37,081 bases of DNA, from positions 1-37,081 of the forward strand of contig QNES01000021.1 of assembly GCA_003645255.1 (NCBI GenBank). Direction: 5' to 3'. Below are positions 773 to 36,688 of the stretch, piece by piece. Below the pieces are notes generated by a model, which was given only the letters and a program-made list of their open reading frames with translations, had not been told where the DNA came from and did no database searches. The DNA is from Gammaproteobacteria bacterium. GTDB lineage: Bacteria; Pseudomonadota; Gammaproteobacteria; Beggiatoales; Beggiatoaceae. The position numbers and the translations under genes are program-made. Every line of letters begins with the position of its first letter. Within the stretch, counting starts at the first letter, position 1.

Positions 773-3511
773 TTAAAATAACTGTTTGGGAACAATATTA
801 TTCTCTTTTACAGCTTGGCTTTTGACAGAAAAATCGGTTTTGTTATGCGACGATTGAAGCAATGCAGGTTGACATCCTGTCACTAATGCAACTAAAGGAA
901 AAGATTTTGTAGTCGGCGCATTTTTATCTTGCTGGGCTTGATGCGTTTTAACAGGTACCGGTAATGCATTGAATAACAGGGGACCACTCCCAAATAAATC
1001 TGTGACAGCGTTAGAGGTACCTTGGCTCGGAATTAACAAAAAACGACTGAGATTTTCAGCCACTCGTTGACCACAGGGCGTATTCATTAGAGCACTGGCA
1101 TCAAAAAAAGTAGCGGGTAAGGCAAAGAAACCTTCAACAGCAGTGTTATCGGGAGTATTAATAATCACCACACCATCAACTCCAAATTCTGAAGAAGCAT
1201 TAATGACATCTTCTACGGCTTCCCCTGTAAAGTTATAAATGCCGGTAGTCGTGACATCAATATTACCCCCTTTGCCTTTTTTAGCTTTGGCAAATATTTG
1301 AGCACCACTTAACACAACAAATTCTGGACTGGCAGTAATATTACCCCCACCCCCAAAATCTTCATTGACACTGGTCGTGATTTGACTATTAATCAGATAG
1401 ACATAACTTGGAGCGCTGATCGTTAAATTACCCCCATCAGCACTTTCAGCCTTCGTTTCGATAGAAGAACCATTACGCATTACCAGCTTGTCTTCTAAAA
1501 TTATGGCTATTTGCCCTGCATTACCTTGAGCTTCACTGAAGGCAGTAATGATAGCTTTATCAGTCAACATGAGGGTATTGCTTTGAATACTGACATTGCC
1601 CCCTTGGGCTGATCCATAAGTACCTGCATTGATCTCAGCTTGATCGATTAAATGTAAATCACCGGCTATCAATACAATCGTGCCACCATCGCCTGCATTA
1701 TCCGTTTGACCTTGTGAAGTCGTAAAAAGACCACTACGAAAGCTATCTTCACTTTGGTCATGACCCGTAAAAGTGGCACTTTTAGCGACTTTGACCACAA
1801 CAGCGCCACCTTGTCCCGGACCAAAGCTACTCGTGCCTATTTGTGCGCCATCACTGATTTGTAAACGCCCTGCCGTTAATTCAATGGTGCCGCCATCACC
1901 TGCATCTTTTGTTCTACCAACCGTTTGCGCCGTTATATAACTACCATAGCCAGCACTATCTAAACCTTCCAATTTGACTTGATCACTGACTTGAATTTGG
2001 ATATGACCGCCTTGACCGGTTCCACCGCCGTCTGCACTGATATGACTTCCCTCAGTGACACTTAACTGTTTAGCGTCTAAGCTAATACGACCACCATCCC
2101 CTGAACCGGCACTGCTTGTCGAAATGCTGCTGGTAAATCCTCGTCTATCCTCACCCGATAAGGTGACATTGCCAATGGCTTTAATATTGATTTGCCCTCC
2201 TTGACCGGTACCATAAGTGAATGCGCCTATCTGTGCGCCATCTTTTAGGGATAATTGTTCGGATTCAAGAACAATGGTGCCACCTTGCCCTGCATTTTCC
2301 ATTTTGCCCCGGGTATTTGTCGCAATCGCACTGCCCTGCCCCAAAGCACCTAGTCCAGAAAGCGTAATGGAATCAGTCGCCTGAATGTTAATATAACCCC
2401 CTTGCCCAGTTTCCATATTCATCGCATTGATATTGGCACCGTCTTCTAAATGTAAGGCACCTGTTTCTAATTCGATAGAACCAGCATCTCCTTCCTTCAT
2501 TGATCCAGCCACAATTCCACTGGCGTTGACTCGTCCAGTCGTTGAAATTTTTTTATAACCAGAAAATGTAATCAATCCATCGACTTTAATTTTTATCATA
2601 CCCCCTGGCTGACTTCCCAGGGCATTACTGAGAAACCGACTACCACGCCTTGCGATTAATTCACCCGCTTGCACATCAATTTTACCACCTTCAGCAAGAT
2701 CGGCTGTAGTAGCTTGCACGGTGGTATTATCCAGAAAAAACTCCCCCGCACGGATATAAATACCACTATGACGACCACCATGATTCACACTTAAATTGGA
2801 ATTTTGTAGAGTAATAGGACCAGGTTGGGCGGATAATGTTAAATCTTCTAGCAATGGTACCACCTCACCGGCGGATGCAACGCTTGCCATATTGATACGT
2901 CCAGAAGTTGCTCTTAACAAAAAATTATTGGCTTCAATGGGACCCCCTATGAGAGAAAGCGTGTTGCCTGGGGTAGCATTCAAGCGACTACCTTCAATAA
3001 ATAACGAGCTGGGAGAATCCGTCAAAAAACCAAATGCTGAGACGGGTGCCACACTTAATACACTCTCATGAGGATTTAGCGCATTAAATTGACCACCATC
3101 TTGTAAATACAATGTATCAGCAGTGCTAGCATGGAAAGAACCTGGTATATCCAGTTTAGCATTGGCTCCAAACATCATGCCGGCTGGATTAATTAAATAA
3201 ACATCGGCATCTGGAATTGTACTTCGGAGTAAGCCATCAATACTTGAAGGGCTACCACCTGTCACGCGACTGATAACATGACTAATCTGTTCAGGACCAG
3301 AAAATGTCGCACTTTCGTCCAGATTAAGATTGAATTGATCAAAACTATGAAATAGATTAGTACCGTGTTGTTGCCCAAAATCAGCACCAATGGTATAATC
3401 AGGTCCATCCAGGGCAACGCGAGGGCCCAAGGTGCCGTCCAGCGTGACTTCCGCCTGGAGGTTTGTAACAGATAATAAGCTTACAATAAATAAGGAAATA
3501 AATAATTTCAT
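773..3511 (-). CDS. Secreted filamentous-haemagglutinin-type exoprotein (TPS-domain, TpsA-like)
   Basis: The 912-residue protein has a Sec signal peptide (residues 1-20, cleavage after LQA) followed by a two-partner-secretion haemagglutination-activity domain (about 21-200) with the hallmark NPAGMMFG at 108-115. Residues 342-670 hold five tandem units of about 65 residues, each starting near a GDGGTIxL motif and containing DGAQI and GTGQGG, as expected of a right-handed beta-helix. The C-terminal part has a conserved Cys-Gly (about 813) and a second Cys near 876, typical of TpsA-like proteins of cyanobacteria and Thiotrichales. It is expected to be exported by an FhaC/TpsB-type outer-membrane channel, but no such gene lies in the window. 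The role (adhesin or sheath protein) is inferred; the family call is firm. Confidence 0.9.
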   Translation of the reverse strand: MKLFISLFIVSLLSVTNLQAEVTLDGTLGPRVALDGPDYTIGADFGQQHGTNLFHSFDQFNLNLDESATFSGPEQISHVISRVTGGSPSSIDGLLRSTIPDADVYLINPAGMMFGANAKLDIPGSFHASTADTLYLQDGGQFNALNPHESVLSVAPVSAFGFLTDSPSSLFIEGSRLNATPGNTLSLIGGPIEANNFLLRATSGRINMASVASAGEVVPLLEDLTLSAQPGPITLQNSNLSVNHGGRHSGIYIRAGEFFLDNTTVQATTADLAEGGKIDVQAGELIARRGSRFLSNALGSQPGGMIKIKVDGLITFSGYKKISTTGRVNASGIVAGSMKEGDAGSIELETGALHLEDGANINAMNMETGQGGYINIQATDSITLSGLGALGQGSAIATNTRGKMENAGQGGTIVLESEQLSLKDGAQIGAFTYGTGQGGQINIKAIGNVTLSGEDRRGFTSSISTSSAGSGDGGRISLDAKQLSVTEGSHISADGGGTGQGGHIQIQVSDQVKLEGLDSAGYGSYITAQTVGRTKDAGDGGTIELTAGRLQISDGAQIGTSSFGPGQGGAVVVKVAKSATFTGHDQSEDSFRSGLFTTSQGQTDNAGDGGTIVLIAGDLHLIDQAEINAGTYGSAQGGNVSIQSNTLMLTDKAIITAFSEAQGNAGQIAIILEDKLVMRNGSSIETKAESADGGNLTISAPSYVYLINSQITTSVNEDFGGGGNITASPEFVVLSGAQIFAKAKKGKGGNIDVTTTGIYNFTGEAVEDVINASSEFGVDGVVIINTPDNTAVEGFFALPATFFDASALMNTPCGQRVAENLSRFLLIPSQGTSNAVTDLFGSGPLLFNALPVPVKTHQAQQDKNAPTTKSFPLVALVTGCQPALLQSSHNKTDFSVKSQAVKENNIVPKQLF

Positions 3512-3558
3512 GAGTATGTATGTCCTGTTTTGAAAAAAATGCTTACCTTAAAGCAAGC

Positions 3559-3580
3559 GTAGGGTGCGTCCCACGCACCA
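3559..3580. repeat. GTAGGGTGCGT-type hairpin repeat
   Basis: The stem GGTGCGT / ACGCACC has a CCC loop and is perfect over 7 bp. It belongs to a loose group of short hairpins that begin with GTAGGG. A second, slightly diverged copy is at 3758-3780. Confidence 0.6.
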
Positions 3581-3603
3581 TTCATCGAACATAAGCATTA
3601 TAT

Positions 3604-3632
3604 AAAAAAAGGCAATCTGTCGGATTGCCTTT
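3604..3632 (-). terminator. Intrinsic terminator, minus-strand direction
   Basis: A perfect 10-bp stem (AAAGGCAATC at 3608-3617, GATTGCCTTT at 3623-3632, 5-nt loop) is followed on the minus strand by a run of seven T. It would end transcription from the ATPase gene and insulate the exoprotein gene downstream. Confidence 0.7.
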
Positions 3633-3644
3633 AATAAAAATATT

Positions 3645-3729
3645 GTCTGAATCAGAATTTTCAAAATGTTTGGGGTTAATTGTGTTTTAATTCTGTGAAT
3701 TCTTAAATTCTGTGAATTCTGATTCAGAC
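3645..3729. repeat. MITE-like inverted-repeat element (85 bp)
   Basis: The ends GTCTGAATCAGAATT (3645-3659) and AATTCTGATTCAGAC (3715-3729) form a perfect 15-bp inverted repeat. The inside carries a direct repeat of ATTCTGTGAATTCT. It has no coding capacity and resembles a small non-autonomous mobile palindrome. Confidence 0.6.
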
Positions 3730-3757
3730 TGTTAATTATTAGATAGAACCAACAAAC

Positions 3758-3780
3758 GTAGGATGCCTCCCACGCACCAT
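3758..3780. repeat. GTAGGATGCCT-type hairpin repeat, degenerate
   Basis: This is a diverged copy of the hairpin at 3559-3580, ending in the same CCCACGCACCAT, next to the 3' end of the ATPase gene. The two copies bracket the element at 3645-3729. Confidence 0.5.
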
Positions 3781-3786
3781 ACAGGT

Positions 3787-5028
3787 TTACAATGCGAAAT
3801 TATTTTTTTGAACAGAACTAAAACCGGGACTCCAAAATTCCAACGCCTTTTGTTCAGTCGGTTTAGTGAATACCGGTTGCCCCATCTCATCACGTTCTAC
3901 TAATATAATATGCTCTAGCTGTAGTAAATCCAGAATATACGGAGAATGAGTCGTTACAATTATCTGTGCTTTACCCGATTCCACGATATGATGTATTTCT
4001 TTTACAATCATGTGAAGAGTACGCGGTTCTAAACCATTTTCAATTTCTTCAATCACAATCAAGGGAGGTGGTTTGGGATGACGCAACAACGCAAGTAGTG
4101 CCACAGTCCGCAAAGTGCCTGTCGATAATAACCATTCTGCAATTTTGCATTCTCCCTCCGTTAGCTGTAAATAAACACTGCGTTCTAATTCTGTACTCAA
4201 AACCACTTGCAAATCTTTCGCATACGGCAATAGAGATTGTAATGTTTTTAAAATACTATCATAAGTACTTGGGCTTAATCTACGAATGTTTAATAAATAC
4301 CTGGCGAGGTTAGAACCGTATTTATTGAGTCGCATATCACCGCTCATTCGTTTTTGCACTCTTGATGTATCCACCCTATCGGGATTGAGTGTGAGAAATT
4401 GCCAATCAAAACTATCCCAGAAGCGTTTATTTTTATTGATGCTTTTTAACCATGTTATCAGCCTCATTTCTGAAGAGGGATTTTGTATAGTGTTAACATA
4501 CCGTGATAGTGCAGCCCATAATGCGGAATTAGCCCTTGACAAGATTGAAAACTCACTGCCGGCAGGGGCAGAAAAATCAAATGACTCAATTTCTGGAAAA
4601 TAAAAGGCATTATTTGTTTGACGTTCTACTATCAACTTCTCCTCAAAAAATAGCTTTTCACTCTGGATAAAGATATCCTGTTTCTCTCCAAGAGTCACTG
4701 ACATATTAGCGCGAAATATCGAATTATCCATTTTTTGGCACAATTCAAATACCATAGGATTCGTTTCATAAGCACTATCACCCAATGTTTTTAACTCGTG
4801 TGGATTCATTCGATTACGCACCTGTTCAAAGCCCCGCCAACGATTCATAGCAATATCTAAACCCTGCTTAATAATCGTTTGGTAAGTTTCCAAAGCTTCA
4901 ATGAAACTACTTTTGCCAGAGCCATTATTACCCATAAAAACGGTTAAGGGTGAAAGTTCAAGCGTGCCACTGTCTCGAATCGCTTTAAAATTTTTGATTC
5001 TGAAGCTCTTAATAGTTAAATTATTCAT
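3787..5028 (-). CDS. AAA family ATPase (SMC/OLD-like, stand-alone)
   Basis: This is an ABC/SMC-type ATPase of 413 residues. It begins IKSFRIKNFKAIRD, then has Walker A GNNGSGKSS (33-41), a signature-like LSTGTLR segment, Walker B LIVIEEIENGLEP and the switch histidine in IIVTTHSPYILDLL. Such proteins (AAA_15/AAA_21) often act with a nuclease in DNA maintenance or phage defence, but no TOPRIM nuclease is fused (the C-terminus ends soon after the switch motif) and none is adjacent. I chose ATG 5028 because homology begins there; a TTG at 5079 would add 17 residues. The region in front of the start (5041-5092) resembles the 62-bp leader repeated at 15757 and 16207. The partner and function are unknown. 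Confidence 0.85.
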   Translation of the reverse strand: MNNLTIKSFRIKNFKAIRDSGTLELSPLTVFMGNNGSGKSSFIEALETYQTIIKQGLDIAMNRWRGFEQVRNRMNPHELKTLGDSAYETNPMVFELCQKMDNSIFRANMSVTLGEKQDIFIQSEKLFFEEKLIVERQTNNAFYFPEIESFDFSAPAGSEFSILSRANSALWAALSRYVNTIQNPSSEMRLITWLKSINKNKRFWDSFDWQFLTLNPDRVDTSRVQKRMSGDMRLNKYGSNLARYLLNIRRLSPSTYDSILKTLQSLLPYAKDLQVVLSTELERSVYLQLTEGECKIAEWLLSTGTLRTVALLALLRHPKPPPLIVIEEIENGLEPRTLHMIVKEIHHIVESGKAQIIVTTHSPYILDLLQLEHIILVERDEMGQPVFTKPTEQKALEFWSPGFSSVQKNNFAL

Positions 5029-14351: not shown

Positions 14352-14379
14352 GTTATCAGTTATCAGTTATCAGTTTTTA
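14352..14379 (-). repeat. TAACTGA heptamer tandem repeat before metX
   Basis: Three perfect GTTATCA units plus a fourth diverged one lie directly upstream of the metX ATG (TGATAAC on the coding strand). Similar arrays occur at 30908-30935 and 35779-35792. TAACTGA direct repeats are known from marine Beggiatoaceae. They occupy the place of the ribosome-binding site. Confidence 0.75.
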
Positions 14380-34358: not shown

Positions 34359-35459
34359 TTATTTAAGTTGCTCATGTAGCAAGGTTAAAATGCGTTCAGC
34401 CGTTTTGTTGGACGAAATTTTACCTTGGTTATTTAATACAACAATGCGCGTTGTAGAAGATTCATCAAGCAAATTGATACGATAGACTTGGTTATCTTTT
34501 TCTTTCTTGCCGCCAAAAATTCTTGCAAAAAATCCTTTTTCTTTATCCGGATCAATGTAGCGAATCAAATATAAACCACTTGAACGATTACGATCTTCCA
34601 GCGTAAATCCAAGGTGATCTAAAGCCAGCCCGGTGCGTCGCCAGGTTCGTGCAAAATCTTCCTGAACCATTAAATCAACTTGACCTTCTTTTTTATGGAT
34701 AAGATGAGCGCGTGAAGTAGGTTCTTTCTTTTCAGTCTTTGCAAGTAAAGTTTCAGCTTGTTCTTTTTCTACACCGATAAAAACCATAAGACGATTAAGC
34801 ATTTCAGCTTCTAGTTCCGGTTCTGAAGGACGGTTTTGCCAAGTAAAATTATTACCCCTAGCAACTTCCTCAGCACCCCGATGAGTTATGTAAAGTTCAG
34901 TTGTACCTGCGATATGACCTCGTTCTAAACGAACTCTAAATTTATCGCGGGTAGGTGCTGAATATAACATACTCAATGCCTTGCCTAAGTATTTACGGAT
35001 ACCCTCTTGAGGAATATCAGCACGATTTTCTGACCATTCAGTTTCCATAATCCCAATGGCAGCATTTTCAATCTTCAAGGTAAAACCATTTTTTAGCCAA
35101 AATTGTTTAACTTTGGGCCAAAATATCGCAGGTTCAGTTTGTAATAGCAGCCAACGAATATTACCATCGTGTTTGATTTGCACCGTTTCTGACAAGGGTA
35201 AAACTTTGACTTTGGAAGACTGTGATGATAGCCCATGACTTCGTGTACGACTGTAATTAGAAAAAGTGGTGCTTTCACTGACATCTGGCATAACCTTATG
35301 TTCATCAATACTGGTTGAGCCAATTAAGTCAGGTGGAACTTCAAGAGGTGGCACGGTGGTACTTTTTTTGTATTCCGCTTGCGAACTTGACGTTGTACCA
35401 CATCCCCCTATTACTATAATAAGCAAACACGAAAGGGTTGTTTTTAAAAGGTGTAACAT
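34359..35459 (-). CDS. bamC: Outer membrane assembly lipoprotein BamC
   Basis: BamC is a lipoprotein of the BAM complex that inserts outer-membrane beta-barrels. From ATG 35459 (with GGAACAGG before it) the protein is 366 residues with a lipoprotein signal peptide ending IGGC (Cys20), an unstructured N-terminal segment YKKSTTVPPLEVPPDL, and two helix-grip domains (IRWLLLQTEPAIFWPKVKQF and AHLIHKKEGQVDLMVQEDF to RIVVLNN). An in-frame ATG at 35519 would add 20 residues without a signal sequence and was rejected. It is third in dapA-lipoprotein-bamC, the usual place for bamC. Confidence 0.92.
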   Translation of the reverse strand: MLHLLKTTLSCLLIIVIGGCGTTSSSQAEYKKSTTVPPLEVPPDLIGSTSIDEHKVMPDVSESTTFSNYSRTRSHGLSSQSSKVKVLPLSETVQIKHDGNIRWLLLQTEPAIFWPKVKQFWLKNGFTLKIENAAIGIMETEWSENRADIPQEGIRKYLGKALSMLYSAPTRDKFRVRLERGHIAGTTELYITHRGAEEVARGNNFTWQNRPSEPELEAEMLNRLMVFIGVEKEQAETLLAKTEKKEPTSRAHLIHKKEGQVDLMVQEDFARTWRRTGLALDHLGFTLEDRNRSSGLYLIRYIDPDKEKGFFARIFGGKKEKDNQVYRINLLDESSTTRIVVLNNQGKISSNKTAERILTLLHEQLK

Positions 35460-35533
35460 AGCCTGTTCCGATACATTTTTTTTTGCAGGACGGGTGCCGT
35501 CTATAACATTTGATGCCATGATTGAGACTTACG

Positions 35534-35595: not shown

Positions 35596-35775
35596 TTATG
35601 TCTGCGAGTTTTCGCTTAATTCAGACGAAATTTCTAAAGGCGGCAGTGCTTGACTTTTTTCATAAACCGTTTTGTCATCCACCCAACTGGAATCAAGATG
35701 TCTGATAGCCGCACCACATCCTGACAAGAAAATTAACAATAATAATAATATTAGCGTTTTGATTTTAATTAACAT
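35596..35775 (-). CDS. Small lipoprotein resembling the N-terminus of BamC
   Basis: The 59-residue protein starts at ATG 35775 with a lipoprotein signal peptide (MLIKIKTLILLLLLIFLSGC, lipid-anchored Cys20). The mature part AIRHLDSSWVDDKTVYEKSQ then LPPLEISSELS mirrors the BamC stretch YKKSTTVPPLEVPPDL. A longer frame from 35853 would overlap dapA and spoil the signal peptide. It stands between dapA and bamC in the same direction. TAACTGA heptamers lie directly before the ATG in place of a Shine-Dalgarno sequence. Confidence 0.7.
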   Translation of the reverse strand: MLIKIKTLILLLLLIFLSGCGAAIRHLDSSWVDDKTVYEKSQALPPLEISSELSENSQT

Positions 35776-35778
35776 ACA

Positions 35779-35792
35779 GTTATCAGTTATCA
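35779..35792 (-). repeat. TAACTGA heptamer repeat before the small lipoprotein
   Basis: Two perfect GTTATCA units (TGATAAC on the coding strand) end 3 bp from the ATG at 35775 and occupy the ribosome-binding position. Confidence 0.7.
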
Positions 35793-35812: not shown

Positions 35813-36688
35813 TTAAAGCACTTGTGCTTGCTGCATGGCTTGTTTAACCACATCGTGGTATTTTTCGGATAAGGGAGTCAGTGGTAAACGGATAGCGGGT
35901 GAAATTAATCCCAGGGTATGCACCGCCCACTTAACAGGGATAGGATTCGCCTCAACAAATAAATTCTTATGGAGGCCCATTAAACGTTGGTTAATTTTTT
36001 CTGCACCTTGACTATCACCAGCAAGAGCCATCTTCAACATATCATGCATAGCCCTGGGTGCCACGTTAGCTGTCACGGAAATCGCACCTTTTCCGCCATG
36101 TCGAATTAATTCCAGCACCGTGGCATCGTCACCACTGTAAATCGCAAACTGATCACTGGCATAAGCCACTAATTCACGCATCCGCGTGACATCACCTACC
36201 GCCTCTTTAATACCAATAATATTATCTATCTCTGCTAGACGTTTAACTGTTGCTGGCAACATATCACAAGCAGTGCGCCCAGGCACGTTATAAAGCAATT
36301 GAGGAACGGGAACAGTTTCAGCTACCTTTTTATAATGCTGATATAAACCCTCTTGTGTGGGTTTATTATAATAGGGTGTCACTAATAAACAGGCATCAGC
36401 CCCCGCTTTAACCGCACAACGGGTGTAGTCAATCGCCTCTGCCGTAGAATTAGACCCGGTTCCTGCGATCACTGGTACACGACCAGCCACTTGCTCAACC
36501 ACAATACGAACCACTTCACAATGTTCATTATGATTTAGGGTTGCTGATTCACCAGTGGTACCCACTGCGACAATGCCATCAGTCTGATTGTCAATATGAT
36601 AATCTACTAAGTGGCGTAAACTGGTCTCATCTATACTATCATCTTCATTCATAGGCGTGACCAGTGCTACCATACTGCCTTGAAACAT
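35813..36688 (-). CDS. dapA: 4-hydroxy-tetrahydrodipicolinate synthase
   Basis: DapA condenses pyruvate with aspartate semialdehyde, the first step specific to lysine and diaminopimelate synthesis. The 291-residue TIM barrel has Schiff-base Lys161 (GIKEAVGD), Tyr133 (YNVPGRT), GTTGES (43-48) and the Tyr107 region TPYYNKP. A GATGGAG ribosome-binding site precedes the ATG. It is the first gene of the dapA-lipoprotein-bamC set. Confidence 0.97.
   Translation of the reverse strand: MFQGSMVALVTPMNEDDSIDETSLRHLVDYHIDNQTDGIVAVGTTGESATLNHNEHCEVVRIVVEQVAGRVPVIAGTGSNSTAEAIDYTRCAVKAGADACLLVTPYYNKPTQEGLYQHYKKVAETVPVPQLLYNVPGRTACDMLPATVKRLAEIDNIIGIKEAVGDVTRMRELVAYASDQFAIYSGDDATVLELIRHGGKGAISVTANVAPRAMHDMLKMALAGDSQGAEKINQRLMGLHKNLFVEANPIPVKWAVHTLGLISPAIRLPLTPLSEKYHDVVKQAMQQAQVL

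Follow-up and report, generated by a model that had tools for sequence, protein, structure and literature searches.

The window, the whole stretch of 37,081 nucleotides analysed here (contig QNES01000021.1, Gammaproteobacteria), carries at its end the genes dapA, X and bamC in this order, all on the minus strand. X (35596..35775, minus strand), recognised from its open reading frame and translation (MLIKIKTLILLLLLIFLSGCGAAIRHLDSSWVDDKTVYEKSQALPPLEISSELSENSQT), its homologues and its dN/dS values, encodes a small lipoprotein of 59 amino acids, provisionally identified as a lasso-only paralogue of the BAM subunit BamC. Its signal peptide, as read off the sequence, comprises residues 1–19 (35719..35775, minus strand) and ends at the lipobox LSG-C, from which lipidation is predicted, leaving a mature protein of 40 residues, CGAAIRHLDSSWVDDKTVYEKSQALPPLEISSELSENSQT. 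Residues 20–57, counted from the lipidated cysteine (35605..35718, minus strand), are homologous by hhalign to the part of the BamC lasso nearer the membrane, its membrane-proximal half, and include the core motif VYEKSQALPPLEISSEL (residues 37–53; 35617..35667, minus strand). The upstream neighbour dapA, an open reading frame at 35813..36688 (minus strand), lies 37 bases from X and shares approximately 60–86% identity with those family loci where a dapA was found. The gene bamC (34359..35459, minus strand; PF06804, E 3.5e-40, 138.4 bits) encodes 366 amino acids when read from the ATG that yields a signal peptide of 19 residues (a longer frame could start at 35519) and is the sole match to PF06804 in the window's genome; its tail core motif EYKKSTTVPPLEVPPDL (35325..35375, minus strand), located by translation, stands at the start of the PF06804 match.

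The direct repeat TAACTGATAACTG (35777..35789, minus strand) ends 1 base upstream of the start codon of X and occupies the expected Shine-Dalgarno position of this gene. The window contains two copies of this repeat, the other at 14357–14369 on the minus strand, where 0.01 would be expected, and the same repeat directly precedes X in another genome of the family (G002). Repeats of this class are known from the Beggiatoaceae and have been proposed to act in post-transcriptional regulation (PMC4679880). None of the Pfam and NCBIfam models matches X above its cut-off, the sub-cut-off matches of the LPAM_1 and LptM models being confined to the signal peptide region. LptM was rejected as the identity of X (PF13627, 9.1 versus 27.3 bits; NF047847, 15.8 versus 27.7 bits; residues 1–21 of X only), as were membership of PF06804 and identity with BamF (PF11233), neither of which gives a match to X at E ≤ 10.

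The earlier note on this DNA proposed that X mirrors the N-terminal tail of BamC, and the alignment agrees, as VYEKSQALPPLEISSEL and EYKKSTTVPPLEVPPDL can be paired without a gap and are identical at 8 of 17 positions. The residues quoted there for the X motif are correct, except that the dot placed within it corresponds to alanine and not to a gap; the motif match is real, but a likeness limited to the motif is too narrow a description, the similarity spanning most of mature X. A profile built from 17 homologues of X, searched against the window's genome, finds X first (E 3.6e-28) and the N-terminus of BamC second (E 3.3e-6), BamC being the only other match below E 0.01; the next matches (E 0.018, 0.17 and 0.48) cover the signal peptide only, and one match at E 0.63 covers part of the mature region (model positions 29–46). 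When the signal peptide and cysteine are removed from the profile, the matches at E ≤ 1e-3 among 4507 ORF segments are the 31 source X sequences, 51 of 71 BamC segments (counted with overlapping loci unmerged and with some loci fetched by the X profile) and two others, namely the X of G028, split by its intron, and the BamC of G013, which is a tail only. Among loci picked without X (2979 segments), the threshold of 1e-3 is passed by 21 of the 33 BamC of the family and by 4 of the 10 from outside it, and that of 0.1 by 31 and 6, respectively; a good share of single BamC tails is therefore too diverged for one-by-one recognition.

The comparison of X with 18 BamC tails by hhalign gives a probability of 98.2 (E 5.9e-14, 37 columns); with the cysteine removed, the score is 55.9, and the best of 200 column shuffles scores 21.2. 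Because X had been used to find the loci of 12 of these 18 tails, hhalign was repeated on 14 tails chosen independently of X, which derive from 15 loci selected by PF06804 or synteny (6 X-lacking family members and 8 from outside the family, one locus without a lipobox being dropped). Without the cysteine, this comparison gives a probability of 94.7 (E 6.1e-8, 28 columns) and a score of 39.4 versus a maximum of 16.1, none of 200 column shuffles being as good, and the 8 outside-family tails alone give a probability of 94.4 over 35 columns, again with none of 200 shuffles as good. At the level of sequence, chance is excluded as the source of the likeness between X and the BamC tail. The consensus of X is CGxxIxxLDSxWxDxxTVYxKSxPLPPLEIPPEL, and that of the BamC tail is CSxxxxLDxVxPDxRxEYKKSxxLPxLEVPPDLT; the second half of the BamC lasso has no counterpart in X, and the PP pair, which is invariant across the aligned BamC rows, is relaxed in X.

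Conservation in close relatives had been set beforehand by the earlier note as one of the points on which its proposal could fall, and X is present in 32 of 42 genomes of the family, with an intact frame in 30 and a group II intron within the frame in the other 2. It was not found in 6 genomes (G007, G010, G014, G015, G017 and G031), in which only BamC matches the X profile, and its presence could not be judged in 4 (G005, G035, G058 and G062; completeness 52–87%). The 42 genomes comprise 25 genera, which is the number listed for Beggiatoaceae in GTDB according to PMC11172852, and the family is therefore very probably Beggiatoaceae; the names attached to 8 loci with the gene are Thiomargarita, Ca. 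Parabeggiatoa, Ca. Marithrix and Thiotrichaceae. X comes after dapA in all loci read where dapA was found and precedes bamC wherever bamC is linked, and in two genomes (G021 and G034) X lies beside dapA with bamC on another contig. Of 369 genomes in a class sample, 46 have a match to the X profile at E ≤ 1e-6, 4 of them belonging to the family and 42 not, in a search that scores the best first-look candidates (up to 17 per genome) and is thus a sample from which a free-standing X could escape. All 42 outside-family matches lie in ORFs of 211–640 amino acids, and 25 of the 26 outside-family loci read have a BamC-type tail behind a lipobox, the stretch in the remaining one (L166) being uninformative. 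Among the genomes searched, X appears to mark one clade of one family.

The two group II introns (L088, approximately 2345–4838, in G028; L125, up to approximately 1290, in G061) have maturase-like genes and RF00029 matches, and they interrupt the X frame at different points in two genera. The C-terminal end of X also varies: the X proteins of genus g10 (G011 and G029; L070 and L089) are divergent, with a long C-terminal extension of low complexity that brings their total lengths to 138 and 154 amino acids as read, and the X proteins of G016, G019 and G061 (L075, L078 and L125) have a C-terminal extension ending in P-I-L.

In the BamD tree of 40 family genomes (G001 and G035 being left out), a single branch (100/99; 200 of 200 bootstrap trees) parts 31 X-bearing genomes, including both intron-interrupted ones, from the 6 X-lacking genomes; among the genomes that could not be judged for X, G005 falls with the X-lacking group, and G058 and G062 fall with the X-bearing group. 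In the DapA tree of 38 rows, which omits G002, G017, G020 and G022 as their loci contain no dapA, one branch (94/94; 96% of bootstrap trees) sets the 25 X-bearing rows apart from the 5 X-lacking rows, with which the 8 outgroup rows fall. As presence and absence are parted by one BamD branch and the outgroups fall with the X-lacking rows, a single gain of X in the stem of its clade is the simplest account, and no loss is seen. Across the whole frame, dN/dS is 0.09–0.41 in 14 comparisons, which are non-independent, in some cases near saturation, and include a few rows with upstream or extension codons. For mature X alone, pN/pS is 0.17–0.72, and constraint on this part is moderate, because 3 of the 14 comparisons reach 0.63–0.72 (G003–G027, 0.72; G019–G060, 0.72; G019–G033, 0.63). 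These values point to purifying selection on X since its origin, and the gene would most simply have arisen through a partial duplication that took in the 5' part of bamC beside it.

The AlphaFold2 model of X (23 aligned sequences; mean pLDDT 78.4, pTM 0.30) consists of the signal helix, a helix at residues 20–31, an extended segment at residues 32–50 and a short helix, with no strands and no globular core. Lipoproteins in which the residue at position +2 is other than aspartate are usually sorted to the outer membrane. The residue at +2 after the cysteine is G, S, T or A in all 31 X sequences and never aspartate, so that X is predicted by this rule to be sorted to the outer membrane. Exactly one BamD lies above the cut-off in 40 of the 42 family genomes and no second BamD above the cut-off was found in any of the 42, the two fragmented genomes G001 and G035 giving weak matches only, while BamE has a match in 39 of 42, which is weak and partial in G001 and G061; the three genomes without a match are 52–63% complete. 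A second BamD serving X and a replacement of BamE by X were both rejected on these counts, and X is thus explained neither by a second BamD nor by a missing BamE.

The earlier note stated that the unstructured N-terminal tail of BamC contacts BamD in E. coli, which is supported by three papers, where this tail, the lasso, is the BamD-binding part of BamC (PMC4890855, PMC5056442, PMC13067283). According to PMC4890855, the tail lies in the pocket of BamD presumed to hold the substrate, and the globular domains of BamC are reported to be mobile and seldom resolved (PMC13067283); the part available of a solid-state NMR study (PMC6175958) makes no mention of the BamC tail.

X is probably a lasso-only paralogue of BamC, matching the membrane-proximal half of its lasso, with a single origin in a clade of Beggiatoaceae, maintained under purifying selection and docking on BamD as a minimal accessory subunit of BAM. 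Its homology, single origin, retention, purifying selection and lack of a predicted folded domain, as well as the single BamD, are backed by sequence comparison, whereas the duplication itself, the outer-membrane sorting, the binding to BamD and any effect on substrate handling are inferred. As X copies the membrane-proximal half of the lasso, docking on the same part of BamD is the simplest mechanism: the lipid-anchored X would most likely lie in the BamD groove taken by the start of the BamC lasso, and would then be a second, minimal accessory subunit that takes turns with BamC on the single BamD or supplements it. X has apparently not taken over the site of BamC, because the BamC proteins of X-bearing genomes have for the most part retained their own motif; X and BamC would thus alternate, or X would serve those BAM complexes that lack BamC. 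Several points count against this reading, namely that two ligands of one BamD groove would have to alternate, that at least 6 members of the family live without X, and that X lacks the second lasso half, has a relaxed PP pair and a moderately constrained mature part, and is divergent in g10.

Alternatively, X might act as a competitor or buffer which displaces the BamC lasso from the BamD groove and so tunes the share of BAM complexes carrying BamC, for example under translational control through the TAACTGA repeat. The common motif, the single BamD and the presence of both tails side by side in many genomes agree with this proposal, as do the repeat at the start codon of X in two genomes and the location of the BamC tail reported in PMC4890855, in the pocket of BamD presumed to hold the substrate; however, X is kept in G013, whose BamC is itself only a tail, as well as in G021 and G034, where BamC sits on another contig, and competition is considered unlikely. 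It is improbable that X docks on BAM by its motif and works elsewhere, such as by tethering another factor through its variable C-terminal end. The C-terminal extensions do differ in length, up to the 154 residues of X in G011 as read, but X ends 3–10 residues past the motif in 17 of 31 sequences and within 11 residues in 20 of 31, and since most X proteins end shortly after the motif, little room is left for a second function.

Slightly less probable again is convergence, in which X would be an unrelated lipoprotein that gained a short linear BamD-binding motif, as argued for the alphaproteobacterial lipoprotein BamF. The shortness of the similar segment is compatible with this, and an independent origin is favoured for the BamF/BamC pair by Anwari et al. 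2012 (PMC3359395). By hhalign, the BamF tails (23 rows from 28 loci, with at least 4 mis-framed rows kept, L228, L231, L232 and L241) share only about 14 columns with BamC tails at a probability of 49.6, and 9 columns with X tails at a probability of 17.1. The X/BamC alignment, in contrast, extends over 28–37 columns and takes in the residues between the cysteine and the motif, and X adjoins bamC, as expected from a tandem partial duplication. A functionless, decaying remnant of a bamC duplication, to which the shortness of X and the two intron-interrupted copies among 32 might point, is hardly credible, given a whole-frame dN/dS below 0.42 in 14 of 14 comparisons, the occurrence of X in every genome of its clade that could be judged, and a frame kept across many lineages.

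BamC proteins shortened towards the lasso also occur. A lasso-only lipoprotein is found at the bamC position in three genomes of three families (L072 in G013, L176 in G192 and L179 in G336), each case resting on a single assembly; no profile match to the BamC globular region was obtained at this position, and PF06804 has no match in the whole of these genomes. The BamC of G013 is a tail of 52 amino acids, and the DNA downstream of it looks, by eye, like that following bamC in its congener G030; the tail-only proteins of G192 and G336, members of two other families, have 85 and approximately 113 amino acids, respectively. As judged with the globular-region profile, the tail is joined to the first BamC domain only in G004, G012 and G024, and to all or part of the second domain in G018, G030, G242, G383 and G176, while the BamC of G154 gives a weak match to this profile; each of these proteins has a tail. 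The BamC of G338 and G121 is cut by contig ends. The short BamC ORFs were sought among the matches listed (to E approximately 6e-7) from a search in which 201 of 369 genomes matched. A modular truncation series of BamC, with the tail kept and only the first or only the second globular domain (or a portion of the latter) remaining, is seen in L064, L071, L084, L077, L090, L178, L180 and L182. The tail motif is degenerate in G030 (L090), and the tail is therefore not strictly kept. BamC frames have 350–404 amino acids in all 6 X-lacking genomes, whereas BamC is shortened in 8 X-bearing genomes from 5 genera, 6 of these 8 having been checked by profile; a link between the presence of X and truncation of BamC is suggestive, with few independent events.

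More tentatively, and with somewhat less than even confidence, the lasso rather than the globular domains may be the working core of BamC, and a free lipidated lasso may be a self-sufficient BAM subunit which has arisen repeatedly, as the paralogue X, as a bamC cut down to its tail in G013, G192 and G336, and, by a separate route, as BamF. The X clade, with two lassos for one BamD, would then have BAM complexes of two kinds. Together with the lasso-only BamC proteins, X would be a natural experiment that separates the lasso from the globular domains, from which it is predicted that a lipopeptide of approximately 35 residues suffices for the conserved part of BamC function, and these proteins may point to a short natural ligand of the BamD pocket presumed to hold the substrate.

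Among known systems, BamC (NlpB; PF06804, Lipoprotein_18) shares with X the lipid anchor, a homologous lasso through the LPPLE-PP-L motif and the adjacent gene, but it has two helix-grip domains and a second lasso half, neither of which is present in X; a lipidated lasso with the LPPLE-PP-L motif occurs in X as its membrane-proximal half only, the lipidation being predicted from the lipobox. The lasso-only BamC proteins of G013, G192 and G336 resemble X in having a lipidated tail and no BamC globular domain that could be found; however, they stand in the place of bamC, and in G192 and G336 are the sole tail found, whereas X is an additional gene beside bamC. LptM (YifL), a small lipoprotein of the outer membrane, is like X a tiny lipoprotein, and it acts as a peptide on a barrel machine. 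In the matches listed from the open-licence literature, as far as those texts were available, no free-standing or tail-only BamC was found besides BamF, and a lasso-only BamC paralogue kept next to BamC appears to be new. BamF (PF11233, DUF3035) is a lipoprotein of alphaproteobacteria that, according to PMC3359395, co-purifies with BAM in Caulobacter and has a disordered N-terminus sharing the core P-L-x-[IV]-P-P with BamC; the core PL-x-[IV]-PP is visible by eye in many BamF tails. BamF is known only from alphaproteobacteria, which lack BamC, whereas X adjoins bamC in a gammaproteobacterial family whose representative here, the window's genome, has no match to PF11233 at E ≤ 0.001; BamF also has a C-terminal region and shares less with BamC tails (14 columns) than X does (28–37 columns). 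X thus seems closer to BamC in sequence than BamF is, and it is predicted to work most like BamF, as a tail-motif lipoprotein docking on BAM.
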